From Armatimonadaceae bacterium (GTDB lineage: Bacteria; Armatimonadota; Armatimonadia; Armatimonadales; Armatimonadaceae), in assembly GCA_030446525.1 (NCBI GenBank), contig JAUJNC010000096.1, forward strand, positions 2,109-15,639: 13,531 bases of DNA. The letters run 5' to 3'. Position numbers and translations under genes: made by a program. This document shows, in pieces, positions 1 to 13,531 of the stretch. Position 1 is the first letter of the stretch. The number at the start of each line of letters is the position of its first letter. The notes under the pieces are model-generated. The model was not told the DNA's origin. It was given only the letters and a program-made list of their open reading frames with translations, and did no database searches.

Positions 1-227
1 AGACCCTCGACCTCGTCGGCCAGCGCGTCCCGCGTGAACGCTGGGAGATGCTGAAGGGCGCCCTGGGCGGCGAGCCCGGTGAGCGCGTCGCCAGCCTCGT
101 CGGCGAGCTGGGGCTACCGAGCCGCCTCTCGGAGGTTGGGGTGCCGGAGGAGGACCTCGACGCCATCGCCGAAGAGTTCGGGGAGCGGGCGGACGTCGCC
201 CGCGAGATCCTGCGCCGGGCCTACTAG
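1..227 (+). CDS. Iron-containing alcohol dehydrogenase / maleylacetate reductase-like protein, C-terminal fragment
   Basis: This is the end of a gene whose start lies to the left of the window. The frame beginning at base 3 is open to a TAG at 225-227 and encodes about 74 residues. The fragment includes LGLPSRLSEVGVPEEDLDAI, an acidic helix, and the end EILRRAY. The short helix carrying a 'GLPxRLxxVGVPxEDL' pattern matches, from memory, the C-terminal helical domain of group III Fe-dependent alcohol dehydrogenases and maleylacetate reductases. Those enzymes use NAD(P)H on alcohols/aldehydes or on maleylacetate. The metal-binding and nucleotide-binding parts lie outside the window, so neither the substrate nor catalytic competence can be judged. 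It is the only plus-strand gene here and converges on the patatin gene, with 28 nt between the two stop codons. I saw no convincing terminator hairpin in that gap. Confidence 0.6.
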   Translation, partial: TLDLVGQRVPRERWEMLKGALGGEPGERVASLVGELGLPSRLSEVGVPEEDLDAIAEEFGERADVAREILRRAY

Positions 228-255
228 CTCCCGCGCTCCGACGCTATTTGCGGCG

Positions 256-3200
256 CTAGCCGCGGTCCAGAAGCTCGTAGGCCGCGCTCGTGGCCGCGAC
301 GTAGACTGCGTGGTGGAAGGCGTCTATGGCGACCTCCTTGGCGCCCCAGGTCCAGAAAGGCGGCGCGACGCCGAGGGAGGGGAGCATGACCTGCTCGGAG
401 CCCCATACCGCCCCGAAGTGCGCGGCTGCGGCGCCGGTGCCCGAGAGGCCCACCGCGCCGAGAGCCCCGCGCGCCGCGCCCCTGCCAGACGGCATTCTCC
501 GCGAGTGCCTCGGCGAGCACGATCGGCACCTCCTCATGGACGATCTCGTACTGCTGCCGCCGGAGCAGCAGGTCACGCAGCCTTTCCAGACACGGGTCGG
601 CCCCCGGTACGAAGGGCGCGGTTCCGCAGGCCCCGCGTAGCCACGCCCGCAGATCCTCCCGAAGCGCGAAGTACGGATCGAGCAGGAGCCGGCCGAAAGG
701 GTCCGCCCCGGCATGGGCCGCCTCCCGGTTCGGCGCCAGCGGCTGCTCCGAGCCGACGGCATCGCCCCGGAGCACATAGCCTTCGATCGCCGCCAGCACG
801 CGCTCCCATGCCGATCCGTCCACCTGGAGAAGTCGCTGGAGGCGGCTGCGGTCGAGAAGGGTGTCAATGATCGCCCCCGCACCGTCCAGCCGGCCCCACA
901 AGATATCGTTGGCACGCCAGGAACGCTTGAAAAAGCCGCCCAGGTTCGCCAGAACGTCCCCAGCGACCTTGTAGCGCGGGTCCTCCTCGGAAAGCGCCGT
1001 CTGCACGTCGCGCGGGCTGATGTGCACCAGCTCGATCTGGTAGCGACTCTTCAGGTCGGCGGCCTCCTCAACAGGGAAAAGAAAAACGTCCATGTGGCGC
1101 AGCGCATCGCCGACCGCGGAGACGTCGGCCATCTCGCCGTTGTCGCCCAGCGCCCAGGTGAGCGGGACGGGCGCGCCGCCCGTATGGCTTCCGCCGCGGG
1201 AGCGCAGTTCCCGCAGCACCGGCGCAAGCAGGTCAGCCGCCTCGTGTACCACCTGATCGACGCGTCGGCTGATCTGCTCCACAATCAGGATCGGTGTCCC
1301 AGCGCGAACGGCGTTCCGTCCTATCTCAACCCAGGTATTCCGCTGGTCACGCTGGCACCGGAGGCGCTCGATCTTCTGGTCGTCTGCTTCCGCAGGGTCC
1401 TCCCCGTCCGGCGTGCCCCGCAGCGTCGCACAGATGCCGCGGCTCCGGTCTCCCATCTCCTTTCTGAAGTCTTTTTTGAAGCCGCTCATCTCCGCGCTTG
1501 TCGCCGCGTCGAACGGATCGTAATGGCGGAGGAATTGCCGCAAACACCCTACCAACAGATACCAGACGCGGTCCACAGCGCTCTCGGCGTCTGGCGTATC
1601 GGGAGCCGCCGTGTTCATCGCTATTTTGAACTCGTCGGACTCCGCAATCGTGGCCGCGACCAGAGCCAGGTTCTCGTCCACGATCTCGCCCAAGTCGCGC
1701 AGGTGGTACAGGTCTCGCAGCCGCTGCTTCACCGCGTCGTAGACACCCGCGCCTTCCATTTCCAGTCTAGCGCGGGCGTCTTGGCGGCGCTGCTGCGTGT
1801 CCTCCGGGGTGGAGGCCTCCGCGTATAGCGCCCGGTATACCTCATCGACGGCGTTCATGATCTTGCGCTTCAGGAACCCGGTATCCACATCATCCAGCTT
1901 AAAGATCGCGTCAGGGTGCGCGGGTTCGGGAGCCTTAGCCTCGTTGACGAAGTCCCGGCAGCTGTCCAGCATCCGCTGGAACAGCCGTGTACGCACCCAC
2001 CGCAGGGCCTCCGCGCGCGCGCGGCGTTTTCGCTCCGCCGCCTCGGTGAGCCCGTCACCTTTTTCCGCACCGCCGAAACCCTCTAGCCCCAGGCTTTGCT
2101 CCCACAGGCCCACCAGCTGGTTGCGCATGTCGCGAAGGCACACGTCGACCCAGAGGTTATGCTGCTGCGCCTGAGGCCGGATGCCGCTCCCCAGCATCCG
2201 CTGCACGGCTTCCAGGGTTTCATGTACCCGCCGCGCCCGCTTGTTGTGGTCGGCCACGGACTGCAGCGCCGCGCTCAGGCTCTGCCGGCCCGGGACATCC
2301 TTGTAGAACCACAGGTTCTGTAGCGCGTTCGGCGCCTTGGCAATGCGCGAGGTCCGCAGCGCCTCCGGCTGCGGCTCGACGAAGAAGACCTTGCGCAGCA
2401 CTTCCCGTTCGGCAGGCCGCCGGTAAATTTCGCCCAGTACCAGATCGACCGGCTTGTTGTTGAGAAAGCCACCGTCCAGCATAAAGCTGGTCTCCGATTC
2501 CCGCCCCCGTGGCAGCTCGATGATCCCGTTCATCAGGTCCGGAGGCACCGCGGACGGTTCGAAGATGGCTGGCAGCGACGAGGTTGTCCGCGCCACCCGC
2601 GCCAGCCGTTGACTGACCGCCGCTCGGCGTCGAGCATCGTTCGGGGGCGCGCCCGGCCAGGGAGCGTCTTCGGATGGCGGTCTCATAGCCGCCACGTTCG
2701 GCTCCCGCATTCCGGCGGCGAAGTGGCTTTCACCCCGATGCGCGCGGTGCTTCAGTGCGAAGATGCCACCGTAATCGTAGGTGAAGATCGGCTTGGTGCG
2801 CGTGTCGAAGTAGGCGCGCGGCCGGCCGTCATAGTAGGTGCCGGTTACGAAAAGGTCGAGGTCGATGCAGATCTCCGTTCCGGGCGCACCCGACGGGATG
2901 CCGGGCTTCCAGCGCGGCACTTCCAGCGGGTCTGTCAAGCGTTCGAACTCCCGCGTCAGTGTCTCCAGGTAGTAGCCATTGCCACGCAGCAATGCCGTGA
3001 CGCTTCGGTCGGTCGGGCTTTGCAGCAGGGCATCGATCCCCGCCAAATTGATCCAGGTCTCCCGCAACGGTCGGAAATCTGTCCCGTTGCTCAGGGCAGC
3101 ACTCAGACAGATCGTATTGATGCCTCCCGCCGAGGTCCCGGACAAGATGTCGATATAGGCGTGTGACTGGGTAAGGCGCTTGAGCAAGCCGTAGAGCCCT

Positions 3201-3448
3201 TGTCCGTGGACCATGCGGAACAGCTCCTGGGCGACGCCGCACTCGTACACGGCCAGCGACGTGCCACCGACCATCGTCACCGCGACCCGCACCTCGCGCA
3301 CCGGCACGCGGCTCTCCTCGAACAGAGCGAACCTTCCCAGCCCATCCGCCAGCTCTCGCGCAAGCCTCTTCGCATCCTGCGCTGTCTGCTGCTTGTCCTG
3401 CGCTCCTTTGCCGTTGTCGTCGATAGGCGGCAGAGAAACAGCCTGCAT
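256..3448 (-). CDS. Patatin-like phospholipase with large C-terminal region (DUF3376-type), frameshifted near the 3' end
   Basis: This is a predicted serine acyl hydrolase acting on membrane lipids or other acyl esters. Counting from the ATG at 3448, the N-terminal patatin domain has a GGTSLAVYECGV oxyanion-type loop near residue 62, the nucleophile elbow GTSAGG (Ser about 106) and the dyad Asp in MLDGGFLNNKP (Asp about 325). About 700 further residues follow, rich in charged helices. This layout matches the family of long bacterial 'patatin-related' proteins (TIGR03607 with DUF3376). The 3448 start is preferred because GAGGTGG sits 3 nt upstream; an in-frame ATG at 3484 would add 12 residues and has no comparable site. 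Near 464-484 the frame must change. Left of there the main frame becomes Arg-rich nonsense to a stop at 224, while the next frame encodes a coherent tail (EVAIDAFHHAVYVAATSAAY) ending at a TAG at 256-258. No signal peptide or membrane segment is seen. It lies 68 nt downstream of the P450. Confidence 0.85.
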
Positions 3449-3451
3449 GAT

Positions 3452-3458
3452 CCACCTC
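3452..3458 (-). promoter_or_regulatory. Ribosome binding site of the patatin-like gene
   Basis: GAGGTGG on the minus strand, 3 nt before the ATG at 3448. It decides the start in favour of this internal ATG over the in-frame ATG at 3484. The old-yellow-enzyme gene has a similar AGGTGG site 4 nt before its start. Confidence 0.6.
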
Positions 3459-3516
3459 ACTGTGGCCCTGGTTTCCATTGCCACACTCCGAGATCACGTA
3501 CTTGTTGGCGGAACGG

Positions 3517-4836
3517 TCAGTGCGGAGGGTGGGCAAAGACGACGTCGAAGTAGTTGAACCGGTCAGGCAAGGGCCGACCGGGGTCCAGGACCGGCTTTCG
3601 CAGCAGGTACCGGTCCCGTTGGAGCAGCGTCGCCAGGAAGGCCTTGGCGAGAAATAAAGCGAGCTCCTTGCCGGCGCATCCTTGGGGTCCGTTGCTGAGG
3701 TGGTTGAAACGGTAGTCGACCCCGCCGCCGTCCAGCCACAGCTCCGGCCGGAAGGTGTCCGCGTCGGGGTACCTTTCCCGGTCGCGATGGTTGAAGCTGT
3801 TGAGGATGACCACCTGCGTCTTCGGAGGCAGGGGCATGCCTCCCAGAACGTCCTGGGCCACGGTCTCCCGGATCAGCCAGGGCGTGGTCGGCCACAGGCG
3901 CATCGCCTCCTGGACGCACCCTTCCAAATATTTGAGTCCGTCGACGCCCTGCGCGGAGGACAGATCGGCCCTCGCCATCTCCGCGCGCACCCGCTCCTGT
4001 GCCGGCGGGTAGGAGGCGATGAGCGCCAGGGCGCGCGCGGTGTTCGCGGAAAGGGTCTCGTTCATCGCGAACATCCAGTGCGGGATCTGGTTCTCCATGC
4101 GGGTCGTCTCGGTGGACGGCGCCTGCGCGCACAGGGCCACGAGGCTGTGCTCCTCCGGGGAATGAAGGTAGCCCCGTATCCGGTCGTAGAAGCCGTCGAA
4201 ATGCCGGGACTTACGCAGACCAAACGCCCGGTTGCTCTCCCGCATCATCTTCTTCAGCGTCCCCATCAGGGCGGCATCGTCCCGCGCCGCCTGGCCGAAG
4301 ATGATCCGCACACTGATCTTATCGAACAGGGCTTCGAAGTCCGCCCAGGAGCGGCAGGGACCCTCCTCCCGCCGGGAGTCGATCTCGCTCCGGATGATCG
4401 ACAGGAAATAGTCCGCATACCGGTGCGCCCCCCGGCCCGCGTCCAGGACCGCCTCGTTGAACTGTCGGCGGTCCCGCCACTCGGCGCCCCGGGAGATGGT
4501 GACGGCGCCCGGCTGGAAGTGCGACATGCCGTCGCGCTTGAGCCGGGCATCGGCGTAGATGTCCGGCGAGCGGTCCAGCACGCGCCGGATTCCGTCCGGG
4601 TCCAGGACCAGCAGGGACCGGGTGGTGAGCATGCGGATGTAGAGATAGTCGCTCCCGTACTTCCGGCGCAGGCGACGGCCGAACCGGACCGACAGGGGAT
4701 CCGGGTGGAACTTCGTCCAGAAGGAGACCCAGGACCGGTTCCGGGTGAAGAGCCCCTGCAGGTACGCGGGGACCACCTGGCCCAGGTTATAGGAGAGGCT
4801 GTCCAGCAGCGATACGGTAGGAATATTCCGGGACAT
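3517..4836 (-). CDS. Cytochrome P450
   Basis: A heme-thiolate enzyme of about 439 residues, a normal length for a soluble bacterial P450. Visible signatures, counted from the ATG at 4836, are the C-helix WRDRR (Trp 120, Arg 124), the I-helix AMNET (257-261), the K-helix ExxR as EAMR (310-313), the aromatic region FRPELW, and the heme loop LSNGPQGCAGKE with axial Cys 387. In the I-helix the usual Gly of A-G-x-[DE]-T is Met, but the acidic-Thr pair is kept. No N-terminal membrane anchor is evident. The frame stays open to 4974, but that extension is basic and low-complexity; AGAGG 9 nt before 4836 supports the shorter start. No ferredoxin or reductase gene is in the window. It sits 201 nt after the PEP-CTERM gene and 68 nt before the patatin gene. 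The substrate cannot be named. Next to a peroxidase-type dioxygenase, a hydroperoxide-using P450 (isomerase, lyase or peroxygenase) is as plausible as a monooxygenase. Confidence 0.93.
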   Translation of the reverse strand: MSRNIPTVSLLDSLSYNLGQVVPAYLQGLFTRNRSWVSFWTKFHPDPLSVRFGRRLRRKYGSDYLYIRMLTTRSLLVLDPDGIRRVLDRSPDIYADARLKRDGMSHFQPGAVTISRGAEWRDRRQFNEAVLDAGRGAHRYADYFLSIIRSEIDSRREEGPCRSWADFEALFDKISVRIIFGQAARDDAALMGTLKKMMRESNRAFGLRKSRHFDGFYDRIRGYLHSPEEHSLVALCAQAPSTETTRMENQIPHWMFAMNETLSANTARALALIASYPPAQERVRAEMARADLSSAQGVDGLKYLEGCVQEAMRLWPTTPWLIRETVAQDVLGGMPLPPKTQVVILNSFNHRDRERYPDADTFRPELWLDGGGVDYRFNHLSNGPQGCAGKELALFLAKAFLATLLQRDRYLLRKPVLDPGRPLPDRFNYFDVVFAHPPH

Positions 4837-4921
4837 TGCTCTGTGCCTCTGGCGTACGCTCCGGGCGGGTGAACCTCCCCGCTCCCATCCGTTACGCCGA
4901 AACCGGGATTTGATTTCAGGA

Positions 4922-4948
4922 GTCCTGCTCCTCCGGGAGGAGCAGGAC
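4922..4948 (-). repeat. 27-nt near-perfect palindrome between the PEP-CTERM and P450 genes
   Basis: Bases 4922-4948 form an inverted repeat with arms GTCCTGCTCCTC and GAGGAGCAGGAC, 12-13 pairing positions around almost no loop. It lies in the 201-nt gap, 90 nt after the PEP-CTERM stop and 86 nt before the P450 start. No T-run follows on either strand, so it is not a textbook intrinsic terminator. It could be an attenuating or RNA-stabilising hairpin, or a protein-binding site. The rest of the gap shows nothing I can assign. Confidence 0.6.
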
Positions 4949-5037
4949 GAGAAGAATGCTCTGGACAATGCCAAAGCTCAGGTCAACCGAACTAAAAGCG
5001 AGGCTATGGATTTCGTCGCGTTGTGCCGATACCCGGG

Positions 5038-5697
5038 TCAGGCCCGGAGGCGCCGCCCCACTATTCCCAGCACGGGCAACAACCCTGAGACGACCAGAGC
5101 GGCCGTGCCCGGCTCCGGTATAAGGATCGTTGGCGCGGGGATCGAGAGCGCCGTCCCACCACCGGCCGGTGCCTGCCTCGGATCGCTGGCAAACGTCTGG
5201 ATCGTCGGGCTTGCTCCCGTGACGTCGATCCGCAGAAAGACGTCGGAAGGGCTTCGGGTCGGCAGTTCCGAAGCCGTGTTGTCCAGAATCGCCAACGTGA
5301 AGCTGTCCGGCGTCCCTCCCGCGAAGTTCGTCGTCATCTGCACGTCGAAGGAGAGCAGGCTGCCCGGCGTGAAGCCTTGCTCGAACTCCGCCAGGAACGA
5401 GCTGCCCGGGAGCGTCACCCCGCCGGTCAGGCTGCCCGAGGTGCCGCCCAGGAGCGTCAGCGGACTTCCCGTGGCGCTGCCACCTGCGAAGGCAAAGTTC
5501 GTGAGGGTGACGGTGTTGTTGGCCGCGCCGTCGCCGTCGGTGAATTGAAAGTCGAGTGAGAAGGGGCCCGCCCCGTGTCCCACCAGCGCGGCGGTGCTCA
5601 TCTGGACGTTAAAGCCCAGGTCCGCCTGCGCCGCCGGCGCCGTGAGCAGGGCGCAGGCCAGCAGTCCGGCCAGGATCGAGAATTTCGTGTTGCGCAT
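5038..5697 (-). CDS. PEP-CTERM sorting-domain protein
   Basis: A secreted protein of 219 residues. It begins with a Sec signal peptide (positive MRNTK, hydrophobic core, probable cut after AQA at about residue 25). The mature part is beta-rich, with many Gly, Thr, Ser and Asn and few charges. The last 26 residues are a canonical PEP-CTERM tail: PEPGTAALV, a hydrophobic stretch, then the basic end GRRLRA. Such tails are recognised by an exosortase (EpsH/XrtA type), which cleaves them and delivers the protein to the envelope or matrix. No exosortase gene is in the window. The start at 5697 is secured by AAGGAGGAA 5 nt upstream, abutting the stop of the GMC gene, so the two are probably co-translated. 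The mature domain's function is unknown. The longer open frame running up to 6279 is only the out-of-frame shadow of the GMC gene's 3' end. Confidence 0.9.
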   Translation of the reverse strand: MRNTKFSILAGLLACALLTAPAAQADLGFNVQMSTAALVGHGAGPFSLDFQFTDGDGAANNTVTLTNFAFAGGSATGSPLTLLGGTSGSLTGGVTLPGSSFLAEFEQGFTPGSLLSFDVQMTTNFAGGTPDSFTLAILDNTASELPTRSPSDVFLRIDVTGASPTIQTFASDPRQAPAGGGTALSIPAPTILIPEPGTAALVVSGLLPVLGIVGRRLRA

Positions 5698-5702
5698 GTG
5701 GG

Positions 5703-5711
5703 TTCCTCCTT
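5703..5711 (-). promoter_or_regulatory. Strong ribosome binding site of the PEP-CTERM gene
   Basis: AAGGAGGAA on the minus strand, 5 nt before the ATG at 5697 and directly adjoining the TAG stop of the GMC gene (5712-5714). The arrangement suggests translational coupling and fixes the start codon. Confidence 0.75.
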
Positions 5712-7982
5712 CTACCGCATCCCCGTGCCCGCCAGCACGCGCACGCCGTACAGGTAGTCGATCGCGGTGTCGGCAGGGTTGACGAACTCCAGCACCACCG
5801 TGATCGACTCGCCCGGACTGAGAATGTCGTTCCCGCCTGGATCCACATCCAGGAACGGGCTGCCGAGCGGGGCGAGGGTGCTGGTGACGCTGGCTGCACC
5901 AAACAGGGAAGCGTTGCCGCTCAGTCCGTCCAGTACGAGCGACACCGGGCCGGAGATAGGACTGCCGCCGGTGTTGGTCAGCGTGACCTCCTGCAGGTAC
6001 CGTCCCGTCGCCCGGTCGCGCCGGAAGCCGCCGCGCGTGACGCTGACCTGGTGGGTCACGTCGGTGGCGGAGCCGTGATCCGCGAGGATAACGTCGCTCG
6101 CCTTTTCGCTGATCATATAGATCGGCGTGAGGATGAAGTATCCGGGGATGCGCGGGAAGACGGAAGCGTCGACGATACGCAGGTTCTGCGTTCCATGGAC
6201 CCGGAAGTTCGTGTCTACCACCGCCATCGGGTCGGTTGCGGGGCCCATCTTGTTGCTGCACGAAGCATGATGACCCCACGCCTCGTTTTGAACGAATTCC
6301 GCGAGTTCCTCACGCGTGTCCACCTCTGGACCGGGAATCAGCTCACCGTTTGCGATGTCCGTGAGGTGTGAGTTCATCTGCCGGAGGATCTCGATGCCGT
6401 CCACCACCGAATTCAGGTCTTCGAGATTCGTGTCGGTGCCTTCCTCGAAGTAGTGGAAGTTGATCAGGGGCGTGTCCCGTGGATCGGCGGAGCGCAGCTT
6501 CACGGTTCCGCCGCGGTTGACCGTGTGCGCCGCGAGGACCGCCCAGGTGTACTGGTTTCTTATTGTGGCGACCTCGAGGGAATAGCCGGGAAAATACCCG
6601 GAGAAGCGAGCGGGCCCGCCCAGGATGCAGATGTCGGGATCAGGGCGATTGTTGCTGATCGCGGTGTTCGTCTTCTTCAAGACGAAGTTGAGTACGCCGG
6701 TGGACGTGTAGGGTCCCCCGCCTTGCAGCCATTGGCTAAGGCAGGGATCATCCGCCTGCCCCGGTCTGCAGGTGCTGCCGAACGTGAAGTCGGAGTTCAT
6801 CTCCGTGATTACGACCGCTTCGTAGCGGTCCTGCAAGTTCTCGCCCACGCCCGGTCGGTCCACGATAGTCGGAATGCCAAGCGCGCTCAGCTCGGCCGCC
6901 GGCCCGATTCCCGACAGCTTGAGGAGCTGCGGGCTGTTGAAGGCTCCCCCCGCCAGGATCACCTCGCGTGTAACGCGCATCGTTTGTCTGGGTACCGGCT
7001 CCTCTCCCTGCTGGCTGGCATTCGGGTCGGCGCGGTAGAGATGGGGGCTTTCCAGGAACTCGACGCCCACCGCCGTCGTGCCTTCAAACAGCACGCGCGT
7101 CACCAGGGTATGCAGCTTGACGATTAGATTGTTGGGAAACGCGGCTGCGGTTTGCCGGATCAACTGGCGCGGCCCCACCCGCCGACCGTTTTGCATGAAC
7201 AGCGGGGTGTTGTAAAGCCCCTCGCGGTTCTCCAGCACGCGCCAGTCGTTCGGGTCAAGCTGCGCACTGAAGTACCGGTTGATGGTCCCAGGATCCAATC
7301 CTAGTGCCTGAACCTCGGATTGCAGAACGCGCTGAAGCTTTTCGTCCTCGGCGAAGACTTGCGGATTCGTGAACTCCGCCGGTTGCCAGCCATGAAACCC
7401 ATGCCGTGAGGGGTTCCCGCGCTGCGGAACGGCGTAGCGGCACTGCTCGAATCGTTCATAGTACCTCCGCATGTTCGTGGCGCGCCAGCTGGAGTCGCCG
7501 GTAAGGGCAGCGATGTCATCCCAGTTCGAGTTGCTCGGATACATCTCGACCAGGGCGCTGTGCACCGTGCATCCGCCCAGCCCTCCGACGCGCGGATAAT
7601 ACACGCCGTCTCGTTCTGCGACAAACTTGGTATCTTTGAGCTGGCGTTCATCGTTTGCGTAGTGACGGACGAAAAACGCCCAGCTGATGCGGGGGTCTTC
7701 GCTAGTCAACGTGTGGAAAGCGGGGAACGCGGCGATATCATCGGCCTCATCGCCTCCGGCCTCGATCAGGACGACCTTGTGGCCCGCCTTCGCAAGATTG
7801 CAGGCCAGAGGCCCCCCGCCCGCGCCGGAACCGACCACGATAAATTCGATGGGATCATCCGAACTCCGCCGGAGTGATCGGCTGCCCCCTCCAAAAACAT
7901 CTTCCGGCTTCACTGCCAAGCTGGCAAGAAGACCACCTGCGCCAATTTTCAGCAAATCTCTGCGAGAAAGTCGGGTTCTCAT
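5712..7982 (-). CDS. Tat-exported GMC-family FAD oxidoreductase with C-terminal beta-sandwich-like module
   Basis: A predicted periplasmic or surface flavoenzyme of 756 residues oxidising an alcohol or related hydroxyl group. The N-terminus has a twin-arginine signal (SRRDLLKIG, residues 6-14, then a hydrophobic stretch). The FAD-binding motif VVGSGAGGGP is at about 49-58, ending in the acidic VLIEAGG. The GMC signature GAFNSPQLLKLSGIGP follows, and the C-terminal GMC domain has the active-site HHASCSNKMG (His about 571/572). The second catalytic residue, usually His or Asn two places before a Pro, appears to be Leu (GYFILTP, about 618). Residues 636-756 form an extra beta-rich module with an LTNTGG...GPVSLVLDGL...LSPGES pattern, not part of standard GMC enzymes, which are typically about 500-600 residues. 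GGAG lies about 8 nt before the ATG at 7982. The substrate is unknown; choline-, glucose- or sterol-type assignments are not supported. Confidence 0.92.
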   Translation of the reverse strand: MRTRLSRRDLLKIGAGGLLASLAVKPEDVFGGGSRSLRRSSDDPIEFIVVGSGAGGGPLACNLAKAGHKVVLIEAGGDEADDIAAFPAFHTLTSEDPRISWAFFVRHYANDERQLKDTKFVAERDGVYYPRVGGLGGCTVHSALVEMYPSNSNWDDIAALTGDSSWRATNMRRYYERFEQCRYAVPQRGNPSRHGFHGWQPAEFTNPQVFAEDEKLQRVLQSEVQALGLDPGTINRYFSAQLDPNDWRVLENREGLYNTPLFMQNGRRVGPRQLIRQTAAAFPNNLIVKLHTLVTRVLFEGTTAVGVEFLESPHLYRADPNASQQGEEPVPRQTMRVTREVILAGGAFNSPQLLKLSGIGPAAELSALGIPTIVDRPGVGENLQDRYEAVVITEMNSDFTFGSTCRPGQADDPCLSQWLQGGGPYTSTGVLNFVLKKTNTAISNNRPDPDICILGGPARFSGYFPGYSLEVATIRNQYTWAVLAAHTVNRGGTVKLRSADPRDTPLINFHYFEEGTDTNLEDLNSVVDGIEILRQMNSHLTDIANGELIPGPEVDTREELAEFVQNEAWGHHASCSNKMGPATDPMAVVDTNFRVHGTQNLRIVDASVFPRIPGYFILTPIYMISEKASDVILADHGSATDVTHQVSVTRGGFRRDRATGRYLQEVTLTNTGGSPISGPVSLVLDGLSGNASLFGAASVTSTLAPLGSPFLDVDPGGNDILSPGESITVVLEFVNPADTAIDYLYGVRVLAGTGMR

Positions 7983-8019
7983 TCTTTTCTCCGCCTGCCC
8001 CTTGAAGCAAGGTAGATTG

Positions 8020-8078
8020 ACTATTCTCGTGCCAGCGGGGCAGTTTTGGGCACGAATAGTTTTCCCCCTTCTTGGGGG
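8020..8078. repeat. Two inverted repeats in the gap before the GMC gene
   Basis: In the 138-nt gap between the second cytochrome copy and the GMC gene, ACTATTCTCGTGCC (8020-8033) pairs with GGCACGAATAGT (8049-8060), leaving a two-base bulge. Immediately next to it, CCCCC (8064-8068) and GGGGG (8074-8078) form a small hairpin with loop TTCTT. On the plus strand the first hairpin is followed by TTTT, but no plus-strand gene needs a terminator here. On the minus strand no T-run follows. A processing site or operator upstream of the GMC gene is possible; function unproven. Confidence 0.4.
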
Positions 8079-8120
8079 CTCCCACGTGTTCTTCAGCGAT
8101 ATAGTAGGAATACTCTGCCT

Positions 8121-9605
8121 TCACAAGGATTTCAGGTATTCCAGGAGCGCGCGCTTTTCCGCCTCGGGGAGGCGCGTGCCGTACAGGTGCCCCTGGTTCC
8201 CATTCCCCGGCTCCGACGTGTCGAACCGGGTCCCGAATCGCTCGGCCTGCTCGCCGGTGGAGACGAACCCGACGTTCTCGAAGTCGTACACGTCGTAGCC
8301 GCGGTAAAACAGGCGGGGCCTGTCCTTCGGGGATTTCAGCAGGTCCCGGAGGGTGGGCACCGAGCCGTTGTGCAGATAGGGCGCGGTCAGCCACAGGCCG
8401 TACAGGGGGATCGCGGTGTAGCCCGGCATGTCCCGGAACGCCCGGAAGCGCCAATCCGGGTTGCGCACGTAGCCGTTGTACGCTTTCGCCGCCTTCGCGG
8501 TCCACATCTCCAGCCGGTGCTCGTCCGTGCCCAGCTCTTTCTCCCGGACCGGGATCACCTGCCGGAACCGCTTGCCGCCGGCGTCGTGGCAGGTTCCGCA
8601 GTTTTCGCGCTGGTAGATCCGCTTCCCGGCCTGCCGCAGCGCCACCGCCTCCGGCGTTTGCGACAGCCGGGGATAGGGAGGGGGTGACAGCCGAGCAAGG
8701 TATTTCTGGAGCCGATTCAGATCCTCCAGTGGGATGGAGTGCTCCGTGGCGCCGTCCCCGAGCGCCGAGCTGCGCACGACCTCGGTGAGCGACGTGTTCA
8801 GCCCGTCCAGGTGATACGACCAGCCCTCTTTGTCCGCCATCTCCCAAAGGGGCATCATGTCCGAGTTGCCGATGGTGTGGTCCACGGGCTGGTTCAGGAG
8901 GCCGAACTTGACGGGGTTGAACGGATCGATGCGGCCGCGGCCCCAGCGCGGGCGGGTATCCATCCAGGCGGAGCGCCGCTTCTGCTCCAGCAGGCCCTGT
9001 CGAGGTCTGAGGGATGATCACGAAGCGATACAGGGCACTCTCCACGGGCGAAGGCTTCGTATGCTTGCCGATCTCGCGCAACAGGTTGTCCGCCGTGAAG
9101 CGCGGATCATCGGCGCACTCGTACAGGAAGCGGAGATAGGCCTGCGCGTCGAACCGCTGGCCGGGCATGCCGAGCACCAGCGTGGGCTTCGCATCCTCGG
9201 AGGTCCGGTAGGTGGCGACGTGGCACGTCGCGCAGTTGATGCCCACGCGCGGGAAGCCGATCGTCTTGACGGAGAAGCCGACGGGCGTTTCGTACTTTTT
9301 CCCGCCGGTCCGGTCCCAGCGGAAGGTGTCGCCGGTGTCATCGAGGAAGCCGACACCGTCGAGTGCTTCCGTCCGCGCCGGCGCTCAGGTGCTCCGGAAA
9401 AAGCGCGGGCGGCGCCGCCACACCCAGTAGGGGATGCCGGCCTGCGCCTCGGTCCCCACGGAGCCGTACTTGTAGTACTCGTCCTCGCTGGCGTAGGCGA
9501 CGGGGACCTCACGGAACAGGTGGTACCAGCCGGCCGCGAGGATGACGATCAGCACGCCCGTGGCGCTAGAAAAGCGCCGAGGATGCGTTTCCGGGCGGAC
9601 AGTAC
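8121..9605 (-). pseudogene. Second membrane-anchored di-heme cytochrome c (RoxA-like/CytoC_perox), reading frame broken
   Basis: A paralogue of the cytochrome at 9997-11565. It is recognisable throughout but split over frames. The pieces are: an N-terminal membrane segment (ATGVLIVILAAGWYHLF) and EYYKYGSVGTEAQAGIPY, ending at an in-frame TGA at 9385-9387; a short PEHLSAGADGS stretch in another frame that restores the family's 'FPE(Y/H)L' motif; then PVGFS and heme site 1 CATCH (9234-9220) back in the first frame; then, after a shift near 9005-9020, heme site 2 CGTCH (8600-8586), APYLHNGSVPTL and the family end LLEYLKSL. Both heme sites survive. The first break sits on an A5/T5 run (9398-9402), where one extra T would restore the motif. 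The start is unresolved: an N-terminus SARKRILGAFL lies in yet another frame with no clear ATG/GTG, so the right boundary is approximate. An intact gene would encode about 490 residues. It may be a real pseudogene or sequence error. Confidence 0.75.
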
Positions 9606-10000
9606 CGGCGCGCCCCCAGGCCGCTCCCCGGCGCGGAAGGCGAGCAGCAGCAGCATGCCCTCGGAGACCGCGAACGTCAACTCCATCGCCCGAACAGGAA
9701 ATACCGGAGGAAGGCGGCGAAGAAGAAAACCGCGCCCGCCACGCGCGCCAGCACGGGGAGCCATGCGGCGGCGCGGTAGCGGAACGGATCGCGCCCGACG
9801 GGAAGTAGAAAAGGCTCATCAGGATCAGAGGAGCGCGGCCAGGCGCAGCCCATCGCATCCCGTGTGAGTGGCAGGCCGAACCATCCCAGAAGCGTATCGG
9901 GCGCAATCAGGAGGAAAACGCCGAGCGCGATGTTGACGATCGCGCCCAGCCACCACGACGCGACGAACCAGACAGCGTAAAGTTCATCTTGCAATCTCAC
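9549..10000 (-). pseudogene. Small multi-pass membrane protein, reading frame broken
   Basis: This probably starts with GTG at 10000, overlapping the stop of the upstream cytochrome by 4 nt (GTGA), a typical coupled arrangement. The first segment carries WWLGAIVNIALGVFLLIAP, a clear membrane helix, then LLGWFGLPLTRDAM. From about 9840 to 9803 the coherent reading is in a second frame (APLILMSLFYFP), then returns (VGRDPFRYRAAAWLPVLARV, and a helix AGAVFFFAAFLRYFLFGR). Near 9690 a third shift leads to MELTFAVSEGMLLLLAFRAG. Together these would give a protein of about 145 residues with four hydrophobic segments. No enzymatic motif is seen. I do not recognise the family by name. Its place between two anchored di-heme cytochromes suggests a membrane partner or assembly protein, by position only. 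The true C-terminus is uncertain because the second cytochrome appears to begin inside the last segment. Confidence 0.6.
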
Positions 10001-11565
10001 AGCGTCTTCATGTACTCGATCAGCGCCCACTTGTCCGCGTCCGGCAGCTCCGTCCCATACTCCTTGCCGGTATGGCCTTTGTTGCTGTTGCTGATCGCCG
10101 TGACGTCCAAGACGTAGGACGGGCGGCCCCCGATCTCTTTCACGTCGGTCCGGAAGCCGACGTTCTTGGGGTCGTAAACGCCGTGCCCGATATAGAAGAA
10201 CGGCTTGCCCCCCGACGAAAGCAGGCGGCTTGACCGCTTCGCCTCCGGCAGCAGCAGATCCCACAGGGTCGGGACCGAGCCGTTGTGCAGGTACGGCGCG
10301 CGCGCCCAGATCCCGTCCAGGGGCGCGTTCGCGTACCCGTCGGTCTTGCGGAAGTTCTTGAACTGCCAGGGGTACCCTTTGCCGTACTCCAACTGCAGGT
10401 TACGCAGCTTTTCCGTGTAGGAGTTCAGCCGATAAGGGTCGGTCCGGATCTGTCCTATCGGGTCCACCCTGCCGACATATTTGCCGATCTCGGTTTTGCC
10501 GCCCTCCTGCCGTACGCCGTGGCAGTCGAAGCAGTGCCGATCGTAGATCGCCTCACCCCGCCGGGCCAGCGCCTGGTCGATGGGAAAGGGGTACTTGGGC
10601 GGCGGCAGAGCGTCCATCCACCCCTCGATGCGGGCGATGGACTGCAAGTCGACGTTCTCACGGGTCGCCCCGGCGCCGAAGGCGGCGCTGAGGTTGCGCT
10701 CGCGGACCGAGGTGTTGTTGCCGTCCCAGTGCAGCTGCATTCCATGGCGGATCTTCTGGTTCCAGATCGAGGGGAAGTCCACTGTCCCGAAGCACTCCTC
10801 GTTGGGCACGCCGCCCCGGTAGTGCTCGGCGAACTGGTTCACCTTGTAGGGGTTAAAGGTGTCCACCCGCCCGGGGCCGAACCCGGGATGGCCGGGGGCG
10901 CTGAGGAAGCCACTCAACTGCGCTTGCCGGACCAGAAGCCCGGTCCGCAGCTCGGAAACCGCGCGCTTGTTGATCAGGCGCTCCAGCGGGAACAGGCGCC
11001 CGTCCTTGTCCATCTCGGCCAGCACTTTCTCCGGCGTGAAGCGCTTGTCGCCCGCGCACTTAAAAAGGAACTGGAAGAAGCCGAGCACGTCCACCGTGTT
11101 GGAGGGCATGGCCAGATAGCGCTTGGGGGCGTCCCGCTCCGAGGCGCGCACCACGCCGACGTGGCAGGCAGAGCAGTTGAGCCCGACCAGGTCGACGATC
11201 CGCCGCCGGGTGGAGAAGCCCACCGGCATCTCGCGGCCGGGCTCCTGGATGAACCCGAACGCCGTGTAGTCCCGGGGCGCGCCTGAGGGGAGATACTCCG
11301 GGAACATGCGCGGCAGGACCTTGATGATCCGCAGCGGCAGGCCGTTTTCGATATCACTGCCGATCGAGCCGTACTTGAAGTGCTCCTCGATGTTGGCGTA
11401 GGTGACCGGCCGGTTGGGAGCATACCGGTAGGCCAGGTAGATCGCCAGGAGCAGGACTATGGCCCCCAGCAGGTAGCGGCGCCGGGTCGCCCGCCGGTTC
11501 CGTTCGGCTTCCACCGGCGTGAGACGTTCTTGATAGTCGCGGTAGGTGGTGCGCGTGATCGCCAT
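9997..11565 (-). CDS. Membrane-anchored di-heme cytochrome c, RoxA-like / CytoC_perox family
   Basis: A predicted envelope c-type cytochrome of 522 residues. After a basic, cytosolic N-terminus (RRATRRR) comes one membrane helix (YLLGAIVLLLAIYLAYRYA, about residues 31-50), placing the rest outside. Heme site 1 is CSACH (131-135) and site 2 CFDCH (345-349). Between them lies FPSIWNQ...HWDGNN, and near the end APYLHNGSVPTLWDLL. The sequence resembles the di-heme family that includes the rubber oxygenase RoxA and the 'di-heme cytochrome c peroxidase' group. RoxA cleaves polyisoprene with O2, while classical CcpA enzymes reduce H2O2. Sequence alone does not choose between oxygenase, peroxidase and electron carrier. 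The ATG at 11565 is chosen because AGGAAA lies 5 nt upstream; an in-frame ATG at 11628 lacks a site. It follows the flavin oxidoreductase by 71 nt and overlaps the next gene. Confidence 0.88.
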   Translation of the reverse strand: MAITRTTYRDYQERLTPVEAERNRRATRRRYLLGAIVLLLAIYLAYRYAPNRPVTYANIEEHFKYGSIGSDIENGLPLRIIKVLPRMFPEYLPSGAPRDYTAFGFIQEPGREMPVGFSTRRRIVDLVGLNCSACHVGVVRASERDAPKRYLAMPSNTVDVLGFFQFLFKCAGDKRFTPEKVLAEMDKDGRLFPLERLINKRAVSELRTGLLVRQAQLSGFLSAPGHPGFGPGRVDTFNPYKVNQFAEHYRGGVPNEECFGTVDFPSIWNQKIRHGMQLHWDGNNTSVRERNLSAAFGAGATRENVDLQSIARIEGWMDALPPPKYPFPIDQALARRGEAIYDRHCFDCHGVRQEGGKTEIGKYVGRVDPIGQIRTDPYRLNSYTEKLRNLQLEYGKGYPWQFKNFRKTDGYANAPLDGIWARAPYLHNGSVPTLWDLLLPEAKRSSRLLSSGGKPFFYIGHGVYDPKNVGFRTDVKEIGGRPSYVLDVTAISNSNKGHTGKEYGTELPDADKWALIEYMKTL

Positions 11566-11570
11566 CGTCG

Positions 11571-11576
11571 TTTCCT
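11571..11576 (-). promoter_or_regulatory. Ribosome binding site of the intact di-heme cytochrome gene
   Basis: AGGAAA on the minus strand, 5 nt before the ATG at 11565. It supports this start, which places a basic segment and one membrane helix at the N-terminus, over the upstream in-frame ATG at 11628. Confidence 0.5.
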
Positions 11577-11636
11577 GTGTTTCCGCAAGGCCCTCCGACC
11601 TGCCCCTGGGGACGAGAGAGGGCGCCAAAGGGCCAC

Positions 11637-13028
11637 TTACTTGATCGACCTCGGATTCATGAACGGTCTCGGATTATAGAACGGCCTGGGATGATAGACA
11701 GACATGACCTCGTCAATCATGGCGTCGTAGTCGCCGTCATAACGGGACAGCTCGTAGCAGCCGAGCGGGTTTTCGAGCACGTTAAGCAGGCATTTGTTGC
11801 AGTAGGTACAGCGCTTCGCCTGGGGTATCTCCTCCCCGCGCGCGAAGTACCTTTCGACCATGTCGGGGTTGGCGACCAGGGGCCGGCCGATCGAGACGGC
11901 GTCGCAGTCGCCCTGCTCGATCACCTGGCGGATCTTGCTGGCGGTCTGGAAGCCCCCCGTGCAGATGACCGGCACGTCCCTGCCGCCGTCCATCTGCCGG
12001 ATCGCGTCACGGATCGCATGCGCGTGCGGCGCGTTGGCGCCCTCGATCTTGTCCGCGGGCTCCTGGGTCCGGCGCCAGAAATACTTAAACACCCGTTTCA
12101 GCACCGGGTTGCGGAAGAACAGGTAGTTGCGGTACGTGTGGACGCCGCTGGAAAGCATGATGTCGTACCAGCGCACGGCGTGCTCGACCGGGAAATCGCC
12201 CATCGGGTTGCGCGGATGGGGGAACATGTTGCCGGTCGAGACGTGCAGAGCGTCGACGCCGTCCTGCACCAGCCATTTGCAGACCTGGATCGACTCCGCC
12301 AGCGTCGTGCCCTTCTTCTCCCAGGGGAACAGGGCGTTGCCGTAGTCCACCGCGCTGATCTTGACCTGGAGATGAAAGTCCTCCCCCGCCTCCTTGCGGA
12401 TCGCGGCAACGATCTCGCGGACGAAGCGGGCTCGGTTTTCCAGCGACCCGCCGTATTGGTCCCGGCGGTCGTTGATCGCGGAGCTGAGGAACTGGGTGAT
12501 CAGGTAGCCGTTGGCCCCGTGCAGCTCCACGCCGTCGAGCCCGGCCTCGCGGGCGCGGCGCGCCCCCTGCGCGAAGTCGTTCACGGTCTGCTGGATCTGC
12601 TCGATCGTCATCGCCCGGGCGACCAGCCCGTGGAACGACTCGGTCTCGCTGGTCGAGCTCAGGGCCGGCTTGTACTGGTTCTCGACGCCCGCGACATCCT
12701 GCTGCCGCCCGGAGTGGCTGAGCTGAAGGATGAACTTGCAGTCGTACTCGTGGACCGACTCGCCCACGGCGCGCCAGAAGGGGATCTTGTCGTCGCCGTC
12801 GATCATGGCGTAGTTGGGGATGATCCGGCCGCGGACGTGGACCGGCACGAAGGAGCTGACAATGGCCCCGACGCCGCCGCGCGCGAACTTGGTCTCCCAG
12901 TTGATCCGGGCCTGGTTGCCGGAACCGTCATAATTATCGAACCGTCCCGAGATGTTGGACCGGAAGATGCGGTTCTTGACCTCCAACTTGCGAAACGAAA
13001 GCGGCTGAAAGATTGTGTCGAAACTCAT
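11637..13028 (-). CDS. NADH:flavin oxidoreductase, old yellow enzyme-like, with C-terminal Cys cluster
   Basis: An FMN TIM-barrel enzyme of 463 residues. The old-yellow-enzyme core is clear: FQPLxFRKLEVKNRIFRS at the N-terminus, QLSHSGRQ (102-109), the active-site VELHGANGYLITQFLS (HGAN at 170-173), then INDRRDQYGGSLENRARF and the phosphate-binding ICTGGF and SIGRPL. Family members reduce activated C=C bonds of enones or enoyl thioesters. Four Cys near the end (407, 410, 413, 424; CTYCNKC) recall the Fe-S site of 2,4-dienoyl-CoA reductase-type members, but the NAD(P)H/FAD domain of those longer enzymes is missing. About 60 residues around 268-335 look like an insertion relative to the basic barrel. 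The protein ends in three degenerate hexapeptide repeats. AGGTGG 4 nt before the ATG supports the start. It is 70 nt downstream of the heme peroxidase. An OPR-like enone reductase role is inference. Confidence 0.9.
   Translation of the reverse strand: MSFDTIFQPLSFRKLEVKNRIFRSNISGRFDNYDGSGNQARINWETKFARGGVGAIVSSFVPVHVRGRIIPNYAMIDGDDKIPFWRAVGESVHEYDCKFILQLSHSGRQQDVAGVENQYKPALSSTSETESFHGLVARAMTIEQIQQTVNDFAQGARRAREAGLDGVELHGANGYLITQFLSSAINDRRDQYGGSLENRARFVREIVAAIRKEAGEDFHLQVKISAVDYGNALFPWEKKGTTLAESIQVCKWLVQDGVDALHVSTGNMFPHPRNPMGDFPVEHAVRWYDIMLSSGVHTYRNYLFFRNPVLKRVFKYFWRRTQEPADKIEGANAPHAHAIRDAIRQMDGGRDVPVICTGGFQTASKIRQVIEQGDCDAVSIGRPLVANPDMVERYFARGEEIPQAKRCTYCNKCLLNVLENPLGCYELSRYDGDYDAMIDEVMSVYHPRPFYNPRPFMNPRSIK
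11643..11696 (-). repeat. Three tandem 18-nt repeats encoding (Y/M)-(H/N)-P-R-(P/S)-(F/I)
   Basis: The last codons before Lys-stop of the flavin oxidoreductase are three in-frame 18-nt units (11679-11696, 11661-11678, 11643-11660), encoding YHPRPF, YNPRPF and MNPRSI. The units differ from each other at several bases, so this is a diverged tandem duplication within the coding sequence and not a recent slippage array. Confidence 0.7.
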
Positions 13029-13098
13029 GGGACCACCTGTGAAAGCCTGTCTTACCCAAAGAGCCGAGGAGCGGACCCGCGCGGCCGCCGCGGCGGAT

Positions 13099-13531
13099 CT
13101 ACATGACCCGATTCCAGGGCGCGAACGCGTTCTGGACGCCCCGAAGCGCTGGAGCGAGCTCAGGATAGTGCCGCAGCAGGACGCTGGACATGTCGTTGTC
13201 GTTGATCCAGTCCATACCTACCTGCGTGTAAACCCGCGGCGTGTAGTCCGTCGTGAAGAACCGGTCGCTCTTGAGCCGTCGGGGCGCCATCAGGGTGAAG
13301 ACGCGGAAGGCCGTGTCCGAGAAGCCGAAGCCGGGCGGCAGCGGCTCGGCGTACATGCCGATCTGCAGGTCCACCTTGTCGAGGTCGTTGTTGTAGACGC
13401 GGCGGATCTGCTCGGCCCATTCCTTGTTGGGGGTGAGCTCGTCGAACGACCGCACGCGCGGCATCCGCATCTCCTCGCGGAAGTCGTTGTAGCGCAGCAC
13501 GCCGCGCTCGCGGTCGCGCAGGATGTCCATC
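13099..13531 (-). CDS. Animal-type heme peroxidase / fatty-acid dioxygenase family protein, C-terminal fragment
   Basis: The last 143 residues of a gene that continues beyond the right edge; the Met at 13530 is very likely internal. The fragment opens with DILRDRERGVLRYNDFR, matching the animal peroxidase motif 'IQRGRDHGxPxYN' near the heme. It continues with KVDLQIGMYAEPLPPGFGFS, TAFRVFTLMAPRRLKSDRFF and DYTPRVYTQVG, a pattern I associate with bacterial members related to prostaglandin synthase-like and linoleate dioxygenase-type enzymes (PF03098). The proximal and distal His, and the Tyr that separates dioxygenases from plain peroxidases, lie outside the window. So the choice between fatty-acid dioxygenase and peroxidase rests on family resemblance. 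It is the most upstream gene of the minus-strand run that is visible, 70 nt before the flavin oxidoreductase; the promoter of the run is probably beyond the window. Confidence 0.82.
   Translation of the reverse strand, partial: MDILRDRERGVLRYNDFREEMRMPRVRSFDELTPNKEWAEQIRRVYNNDLDKVDLQIGMYAEPLPPGFGFSDTAFRVFTLMAPRRLKSDRFFTTDYTPRVYTQVGMDWINDNDMSSVLLRHYPELAPALRGVQNAFAPWNRVM

Follow-up and report, generated by a model that had tools for sequence, protein, structure and literature searches.

The window analysed here is a 13,531-nucleotide stretch of contig JAUJNC010000096.1 from an Armatimonadaceae bacterium (assembly GCA_030446525.1). Its minus strand carries a run of genes that probably forms a cluster for the oxygenation of fatty acids or other lipids, a reading to which we give a probability of roughly 55% and in which reactions, substrate, order of steps and compartments are deduced from protein families and individual residues. 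The run begins with the C-terminus of a dioxygenase and continues with an OYE-type flavoenzyme, a di-haem cytochrome (cyt1), a small hydrophobic protein, a second di-haem cytochrome (cyt2), a GMC oxidoreductase, a PEP-CTERM protein, a cytochrome P450 and a patatin-like phospholipase (Table 1). The six gaps between called genes measure 70, 71, 138, 14, 201 and 32 bases, the start of the small protein being uncalled. A preliminary description of this DNA had listed these genes on one strand with short gaps; all the genes it named are present, with gaps of 14–201 bases. Its patatin lipase is borne out by a TIGR03607 match over the cut-off together with PF01734 and PF11856, and its dioxygenase-family call by an α-dioxygenase (α-DOX)-type match with the carboxylate-binding Arg in place. 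It had also remarked on a missing redox partner for the P450, and indeed no ferredoxin or P450-reductase domain appeared when the eight main proteins were scanned with Pfam (short open reading frames (ORFs) lay outside the scan).

As we picture the lipid-oxygenation cluster, the patatin would free a fatty acid, to which the α-DOX-type peroxidase would add O2 at the α carbon by means of a Tyr radical. The resulting 2-hydroperoxide would give rise to a 2-hydroxy acid or to an aldehyde one carbon shorter, and the P450, acting as a conventional monooxygenase on a general redox partner, would hydroxylate the chain. In the envelope, unsaturated chains may be oxygenated, or peroxides derived from them handled, by the two RoxA-like di-haem cytochromes; the GMC enzyme, itself exported, may oxidise an alcohol, and the OYE-type flavoenzyme may reduce an activated C=C bond.

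Judged on the sequence of its fragment, the dioxygenase is α-DOX-like, closer to α-DOX than to cyclooxygenase (COX) or mammalian peroxidases. Two α-DOX structures match it at E 1e-34 (4kvl, 1.1e-34) and 1e-33, and COX-2 at 1.1e-3; the solved chains listed include no fungal linoleate diol synthase (LDS). We take 4kvj and 4kvl to be rice α-DOX. The excerpted text of PMC8720084 gives the rice structure as 4HHS and lists its substrate-site residues, five of which are in range of the fragment; with the numbering anchored on the catalytic Tyr, all five come out as listed. F549, F552, A556 and R559 are kept in the fragment, among them the carboxylate-binding Arg559 and the Tyr-stacking Phe552 (rice numbers), and I553 is replaced by Thr. 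The Tyr itself was located from a Tyr/Phe difference between two deposited α-DOX chains; together with the proximal and distal His it occurs in 8/8 full-length cluster homologues and in 120/120 listed relatives of the Calothrix type. The Calothrix homologue, on plasmid pCAL6303.01, is 64.7% identical over the fragment and matches 4kvj along its full length (E 1e-120). A search scored on the fragment returned 7227 relatives, of which the best 120 were listed; among these, identity reaches 83%, some are named Thermoleophilaceae, and the full-length protein of the window's own dioxygenase was not found. Once 20 listed relatives shorter than 600 residues are set aside, EEFxxxYRxH is present in 99 of the remaining 100, the exception keeping the Tyr and having Pro for the His. 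The window enzyme thus resembles plant α-DOX and the cyanobacterial CalDOX and LepDOX in its best solved match and in four of five C-terminal substrate-site residues, with relatives that keep the Tyr and both His, but differs from them in having a lipase, cytochromes, a GMC enzyme and a P450 as neighbours, its catalytic half being unseen. Bacterial α-DOX enzymes are known as biocatalysts, and α-oxidation in non-plant taxa is little described (PMC8720084, in excerpt).

The OYE-type enzyme, the cytochromes and the GMC enzyme make up what is, by sequence and gene order, a conserved core. Both cyt1 and cyt2 carry two CxxCH motifs and PYLHNGSVP, read in the sequence, as RoxA-like di-haem proteins do. 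For cyt1, the NF040606 score is 194.8 bits (cut-off 150), the strongest solved match is RoxA (4b2n, E 2.2e-11), identity to Qingshengfaniella is 47–49%, and an N-terminal hydrophobic anchor can be seen by eye. The cyt2 gene carries one frame change and one in-frame stop (about 9003 and 9385-9387), through sequencing error or decay; its ORF 8121-8963 scores 150.4 bits with NF040606. Searched with this model, two genomes gave one sub-threshold match and 14 control genomes gave a match in one, none over the cut-off. A described tandem pair of this kind is the oleate diol synthase PA2077/PA2078 (FadCcp) of Pseudomonas aeruginosa, RoxA-related periplasmic proteins with two CxxCH motifs each and PYFHNGSVP, which act on a fatty acid as 10S-dioxygenase and 7,10-diol synthase (PMC4496055, in excerpt). 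Compared by that description only, the window pair shares the tandem arrangement, the paired CxxCH motifs and PYxHNGSVP, whereas the P. aeruginosa proteins have 624–634 residues against 522 in cyt1 and the window has extra partner genes.

The OYE-type enzyme scores 180.7 bits with TIGR03997, 179.7 with the bilirubin reductase model, 178.5 with BaiCD, 169.9 with NamA and 150 with N-ethylmaleimide reductase, all below cut-off; the iron–sulfur-type models (178–181 bits) stand slightly above NamA in a set of models that included no OPR. It has 463 residues against about 640 for FadH/BaiCD-type models, with a C-terminal Cys cluster seen by eye. The GMC enzyme is extended at its C-terminus and, judged by eye, bears a twin-arginine-like signal; it is 47–48% identical to its Calothrix counterpart.

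The core recurs in Rhizobium johnstonii 3841, where plasmid pRL11 holds, in the same order and orientation, an OYE-type gene (59% identical), cyt1 (42%), the small protein (32%, or 35% over 85 residues), cyt2 (51% over 307 residues and 41% over 189), a third cytochrome, GMC (42%) and a patatin, annotated as NADH:flavin oxidoreductase, hypotheticals, GMC and patatin. The shared genes are thus 32–59% identical; the rhizobial operon differs in its third, 929-residue cytochrome and in a different patatin, and neither DOX nor P450 has a match within the 28 kb examined. This 929-residue protein (11240-14029 of the stretch, L019) matches a cytochrome model only below threshold. The operon is also present in Sinorhizobium sp. 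B11 and S. fredii CCBAU 45436, in sp. B11 with no patatin in the annotated stretch.

Other parts of the run recur around plasmid-borne DOX genes. Nineteen of 23 plasmid DOX records, at ≥50% identity, were dereplicated by hand to seven lineages with one representative each; the other four (Acaryochloris, Paracoccus) are at 26–30%. On the Calothrix plasmid, DOX is followed by GMC (the top plasmid match of the window GMC, about 2.5 kb away past a hypothetical, a transposase and a hypothetical) and a patatin. In Qingshengfaniella, cyt1 (the top match of window cyt1) lies about 2 kb from DOX, divergent, with an α/β hydrolase alongside. A catalase-like domain is fused to DOX in four of the seven lineages (Pfam Catalase in 4/4): in R. 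phaseoli the fusion is accompanied by a cytochrome, in Phyllobacterium and Rhizobium NXC24 by a patatin and a thiamine diphosphate (ThDP) enzyme, and Nonomuraea has the fusion (Nonomuraea and NXC24 are unannotated, other genes being sought there with the query set only). The fusions lie at 6762-9590 (L014), 6783-9632 (L015), 6657-9611 (L016) and 10477-13611 (L024), each followed by a conserved protein of ~450 residues, which has no Pfam match in L014, where a cytochrome and a hypothetical intervene. A Streptomyces NBC_00069 plasmid (L011, 2682-10653) carries a ThDP enzyme, an FAD-linked oxidase, a P450, an α/β hydrolase and DOX; its DOX, FAD-linked oxidase and ThDP enzyme (annotated benzoylformate decarboxylase) look like an α-oxidation route, which favours the lipid-oxygenation reading of the window by analogy only. 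A patatin or α/β hydrolase occurs in the examined stretch of 5/7 DOX lineages. Finally, DOX and P450 adjoin in a Desulfuromonadales contig (L002); downstream of that pair, at 9864-12468, are a DyP-type peroxidase and a protein that matches no Pfam family and resembles the catalase-like portion of the fusions (25–26%, tblastn); both genes served solely as BLAST queries.

Within 15 kb, DOX and cyt1 co-locate in 11/23 DOX records, cyt1 and GMC in 18/30, and DOX and GMC in 1/23, where uniform placement gives an expectation of 0.002–0.003 each. Because the records are highly redundant (by hand, two lineages for DOX–cyt1, one rhizobial clade for cyt1–GMC and one lineage for DOX–GMC), the independent events are few. 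Co-occurrence and conservation of the neighbourhood, which the preliminary description had put forward as checks, are both seen, the former over expectation in few independent lineages and the latter as parts recurring in Rhizobium, Calothrix, Qingshengfaniella and Desulfuromonadales. The cytochromes, which it had regarded as an added oxidative branch, are instead members of the conserved core; they are related to RoxA, as PA2077/PA2078 are. Its broader interpretation stood in its theme of oxygenated fatty acids and in the weight placed on the neighbourhood; the analogues it named gave way to closer ones.

Several observations weigh against a lipid-oxygenation cluster. The catalytic half of the window's own dioxygenase lies outside the window, and the frame changes in the run, in cyt2 and apparently near the 3' end of the patatin gene (overlapping ORFs 224-3484 and 256-915), could reflect decay. 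RoxA is a rubber oxygenase, and the cytochromes therefore do not fix the substrate. For the rhizobial and sinorhizobial operons (L019, L028 and L029), the stretches examined gave no match to DOX or P450, so that the core can occur without α-oxidation. A P450 of this broad kind accompanies DOX in only one of the seven plasmid lineages, and the nearest P450 relative examined (L001) has no DOX in its contig, with none found in its genome. The lipases, too, are different genes: against the window patatin, that of Phyllobacterium gives E 0.18, that of Calothrix E 7e-4 and that of Rhizobium no match.

Much turns on the P450. Across 37 aligned P450s the O2-activating acid–threonine pair is kept (E/D in 37/37, T in 36/37, S in one), and the Cys loop is divergent (NGxQxCAG), with Gln for the usual Arg in 37/37. 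The predicted structure, with a predicted local distance difference test (pLDDT) score of 91.9, finds its best Foldseek matches in CYP184A1, CYP97, CYP51, CYP3A and BM3, and no CYP74 or CYP152 structure was among the matches listed for it (the best 50 rows and a second look), an absence that excludes neither class. The CYP74 clan conserves an I-helix Asn (excerpt of PMC8124189), its other marks being a nine-residue insertion at the haem-binding domain, an ERR triad and a PPV domain; P450 peroxygenases lack the acid–alcohol pair (abstract of PMC10988616). The window P450 was rejected as a CYP74, as Asn precedes the I-helix acid in only 8/37 (a position assigned by reading the I-helix, in an alignment without any CYP74 sequence); as a CYP152 peroxygenase, as the pair is present in 37/37 with S for T in one; and as a Ppo-type enzyme, as the pair is kept, the loop reads QxC rather than HxC, and some 8.3 kb separate DOX from P450, each a gene of its own. 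We consider it unlikely that this is an oxylipin pathway whose P450 needs no redox partner and consumes the hydroperoxide made by the dioxygenase, as CYP74 or fungal Ppo/LDS enzymes do, although such consumption of the neighbour's product is possible on gene order. The P450 frame of the Desulfuromonadales contig opens 13 bases past the DOX stop (6628; Met 6642) or overlaps it (Met 6621), the Streptomyces cluster also includes a P450, and the Gln in the Cys loop would be in keeping with such a role. Four of the seven DOX lineages have the fused catalase-like domain instead, and Nostoc has a hydroperoxide lyase that is a catalase-related protein with its own gene (PMC13049297, in excerpt); the second haem enzyme may for these reasons be exchangeable. 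Against this stand the kept acid–threonine pair, the scarcity of the Asn and, from the model, fold matches to ordinary P450s; the Streptomyces P450 (30% identical) likewise aligns D-T, after a one-residue gap, and was kept for context rather than as an orthologue. The jasmonate and Ppo analogies of the preliminary description are not supported: the dioxygenase is α-DOX-like rather than COX-like, and the P450 keeps the acid–threonine pair, has no conserved CYP74-type Asn and in its model matches ordinary P450s best. Fungal Ppo/LDS systems do share the association of a haem dioxygenase with a P450, but the window genes are unfused, the dioxygenase is α-DOX-like, and the P450 has the acid–threonine pair and QxC against HxC (PMC13049297, in excerpt). 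Likewise, the Nostoc 10S-DOX system shares a bacterial COX-superfamily dioxygenase with a second haem enzyme; compared by the description in that excerpt only, it differs in that the window has a P450 and cytochromes and no catalase-related gene (PMC13049297).

The substrate could instead be an isoprenoid or another hydrophobic chain, the run degrading terpenoid material. This we regard as quite unlikely, even with RoxA as the strongest solved match of cyt1 and with RoxA-like enzymes cleaving polyisoprene; CYP97 and CYP175A1, which act on carotenoids, also rank high against the predicted P450 model. More improbable to us is a run of two or three unrelated units, namely the core from OYE to GMC, a separately acquired P450–patatin pair and a laterally gained dioxygenase. 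The closest named relatives of the dioxygenase are Thermoleophilaceae (83%, among the matches listed) and that of the P450 is from Chthonomonadaceae (68%), and a 201-base gap precedes the P450; yet the genes share a strand with short gaps, and DOX occurs with cyt1, GMC or P450 in separate lineages. Genome searches around the relatives found the P450 in 1/297 genomes (E 1e-30) and 2/277 (E 1e-50), and the DOX fragment in 1/2; DOX queries gave 0/141 and 0/395 at E 1e-20, an empty result that is uninformative without a positive control. Plasmid relatives of the P450 number 196 records, all below 60% identity (best 20 of 196 listed); of five examined (29–32%), two are beside catalases, one is near a flavodoxin, one is unannotated and one (Streptomyces) is by a dioxygenase.

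Returning to lipid oxygenation, the enzymes are of known kinds as classed by their families, and parts of the arrangement recur across phyla. No paper title listed in searches of the open-licence PMC literature pointed to this gene set, a result that leaves room for an earlier description elsewhere. Tentatively, and with more doubt than belief, we suggest a modular bacterial oxylipin system spanning at least four phyla, in which a lipase, an α-DOX-type dioxygenase and an exchangeable second haem enzyme (a P450 or a fused catalase-like domain) converting the hydroperoxide would be joined in some lineages by a conserved envelope module that combines OYE and GMC dehydrogenase with tandem di-haem oxygenases. 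Repeated association of bacterial α-DOX genes with those for lipases, P450s, GMC enzymes and RoxA-like di-haem proteins would place the dioxygenases in a pathway, connect two bacterial routes of fatty-acid oxygenation that have until now been treated separately, and offer a tractable genetic test in Rhizobium.

Table 1 Features of the window and the matches that support them.
Feature	Coordinates	Strand	Support
α-Dioxygenase-type haem peroxidase, C-terminal 143 residues, cut by window edge	13099..13530	-	PF03098 E 8.3e-30
OYE-type flavoenzyme, 463 residues	11637..13028	-	PF00724 E 4.4e-63
RoxA-like di-haem c-type cytochrome 1 (cyt1), 522 residues	9997..11565	-	NF040606, PF21419
Small hydrophobic protein between cyt1 and cyt2, matched part only	9713..9952	-	Match to Rhizobium protein at same position
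RoxA-like di-haem cytochrome 2 (cyt2)	8121..about 9580	-	Match to Rhizobium cyt2; NF040606
GMC oxidoreductase	5712..7982	-	PF00732, PF05199
PEP-CTERM protein	5038..5697	-	NF038129 77.9 bits, cut-off 65
Cytochrome P450	3517..4836	-	PF00067 E 7.6e-32
Patatin-like phospholipase	about 224..3484	-	TIGR03607 325.4 bits, cut-off 262.45; PF01734, PF11856

Related enzymes also keep company elsewhere. Paracoccus yeei (L020, 7274-11750) has a RoxA-like cytochrome, a catalase-family protein and a peroxidase only 24–26% like α-DOX, and pNGR234a (L023, 10108-16161) has a catalase, a hypothetical, a di-haem cytochrome peroxidase and a patatin. Rfam gave no match in the window, in which promoter-like sites number 2 (1.5 expected) and terminator-like sites 11 (7.2 expected, standard deviation 2.8). 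G+C content is 61–71%. At the left edge, positions 3-227 on the plus strand encode the C-terminal part of the product of a convergent gene; its match to Fe-containing alcohol dehydrogenase is below threshold (18 bits, cut-off 27).

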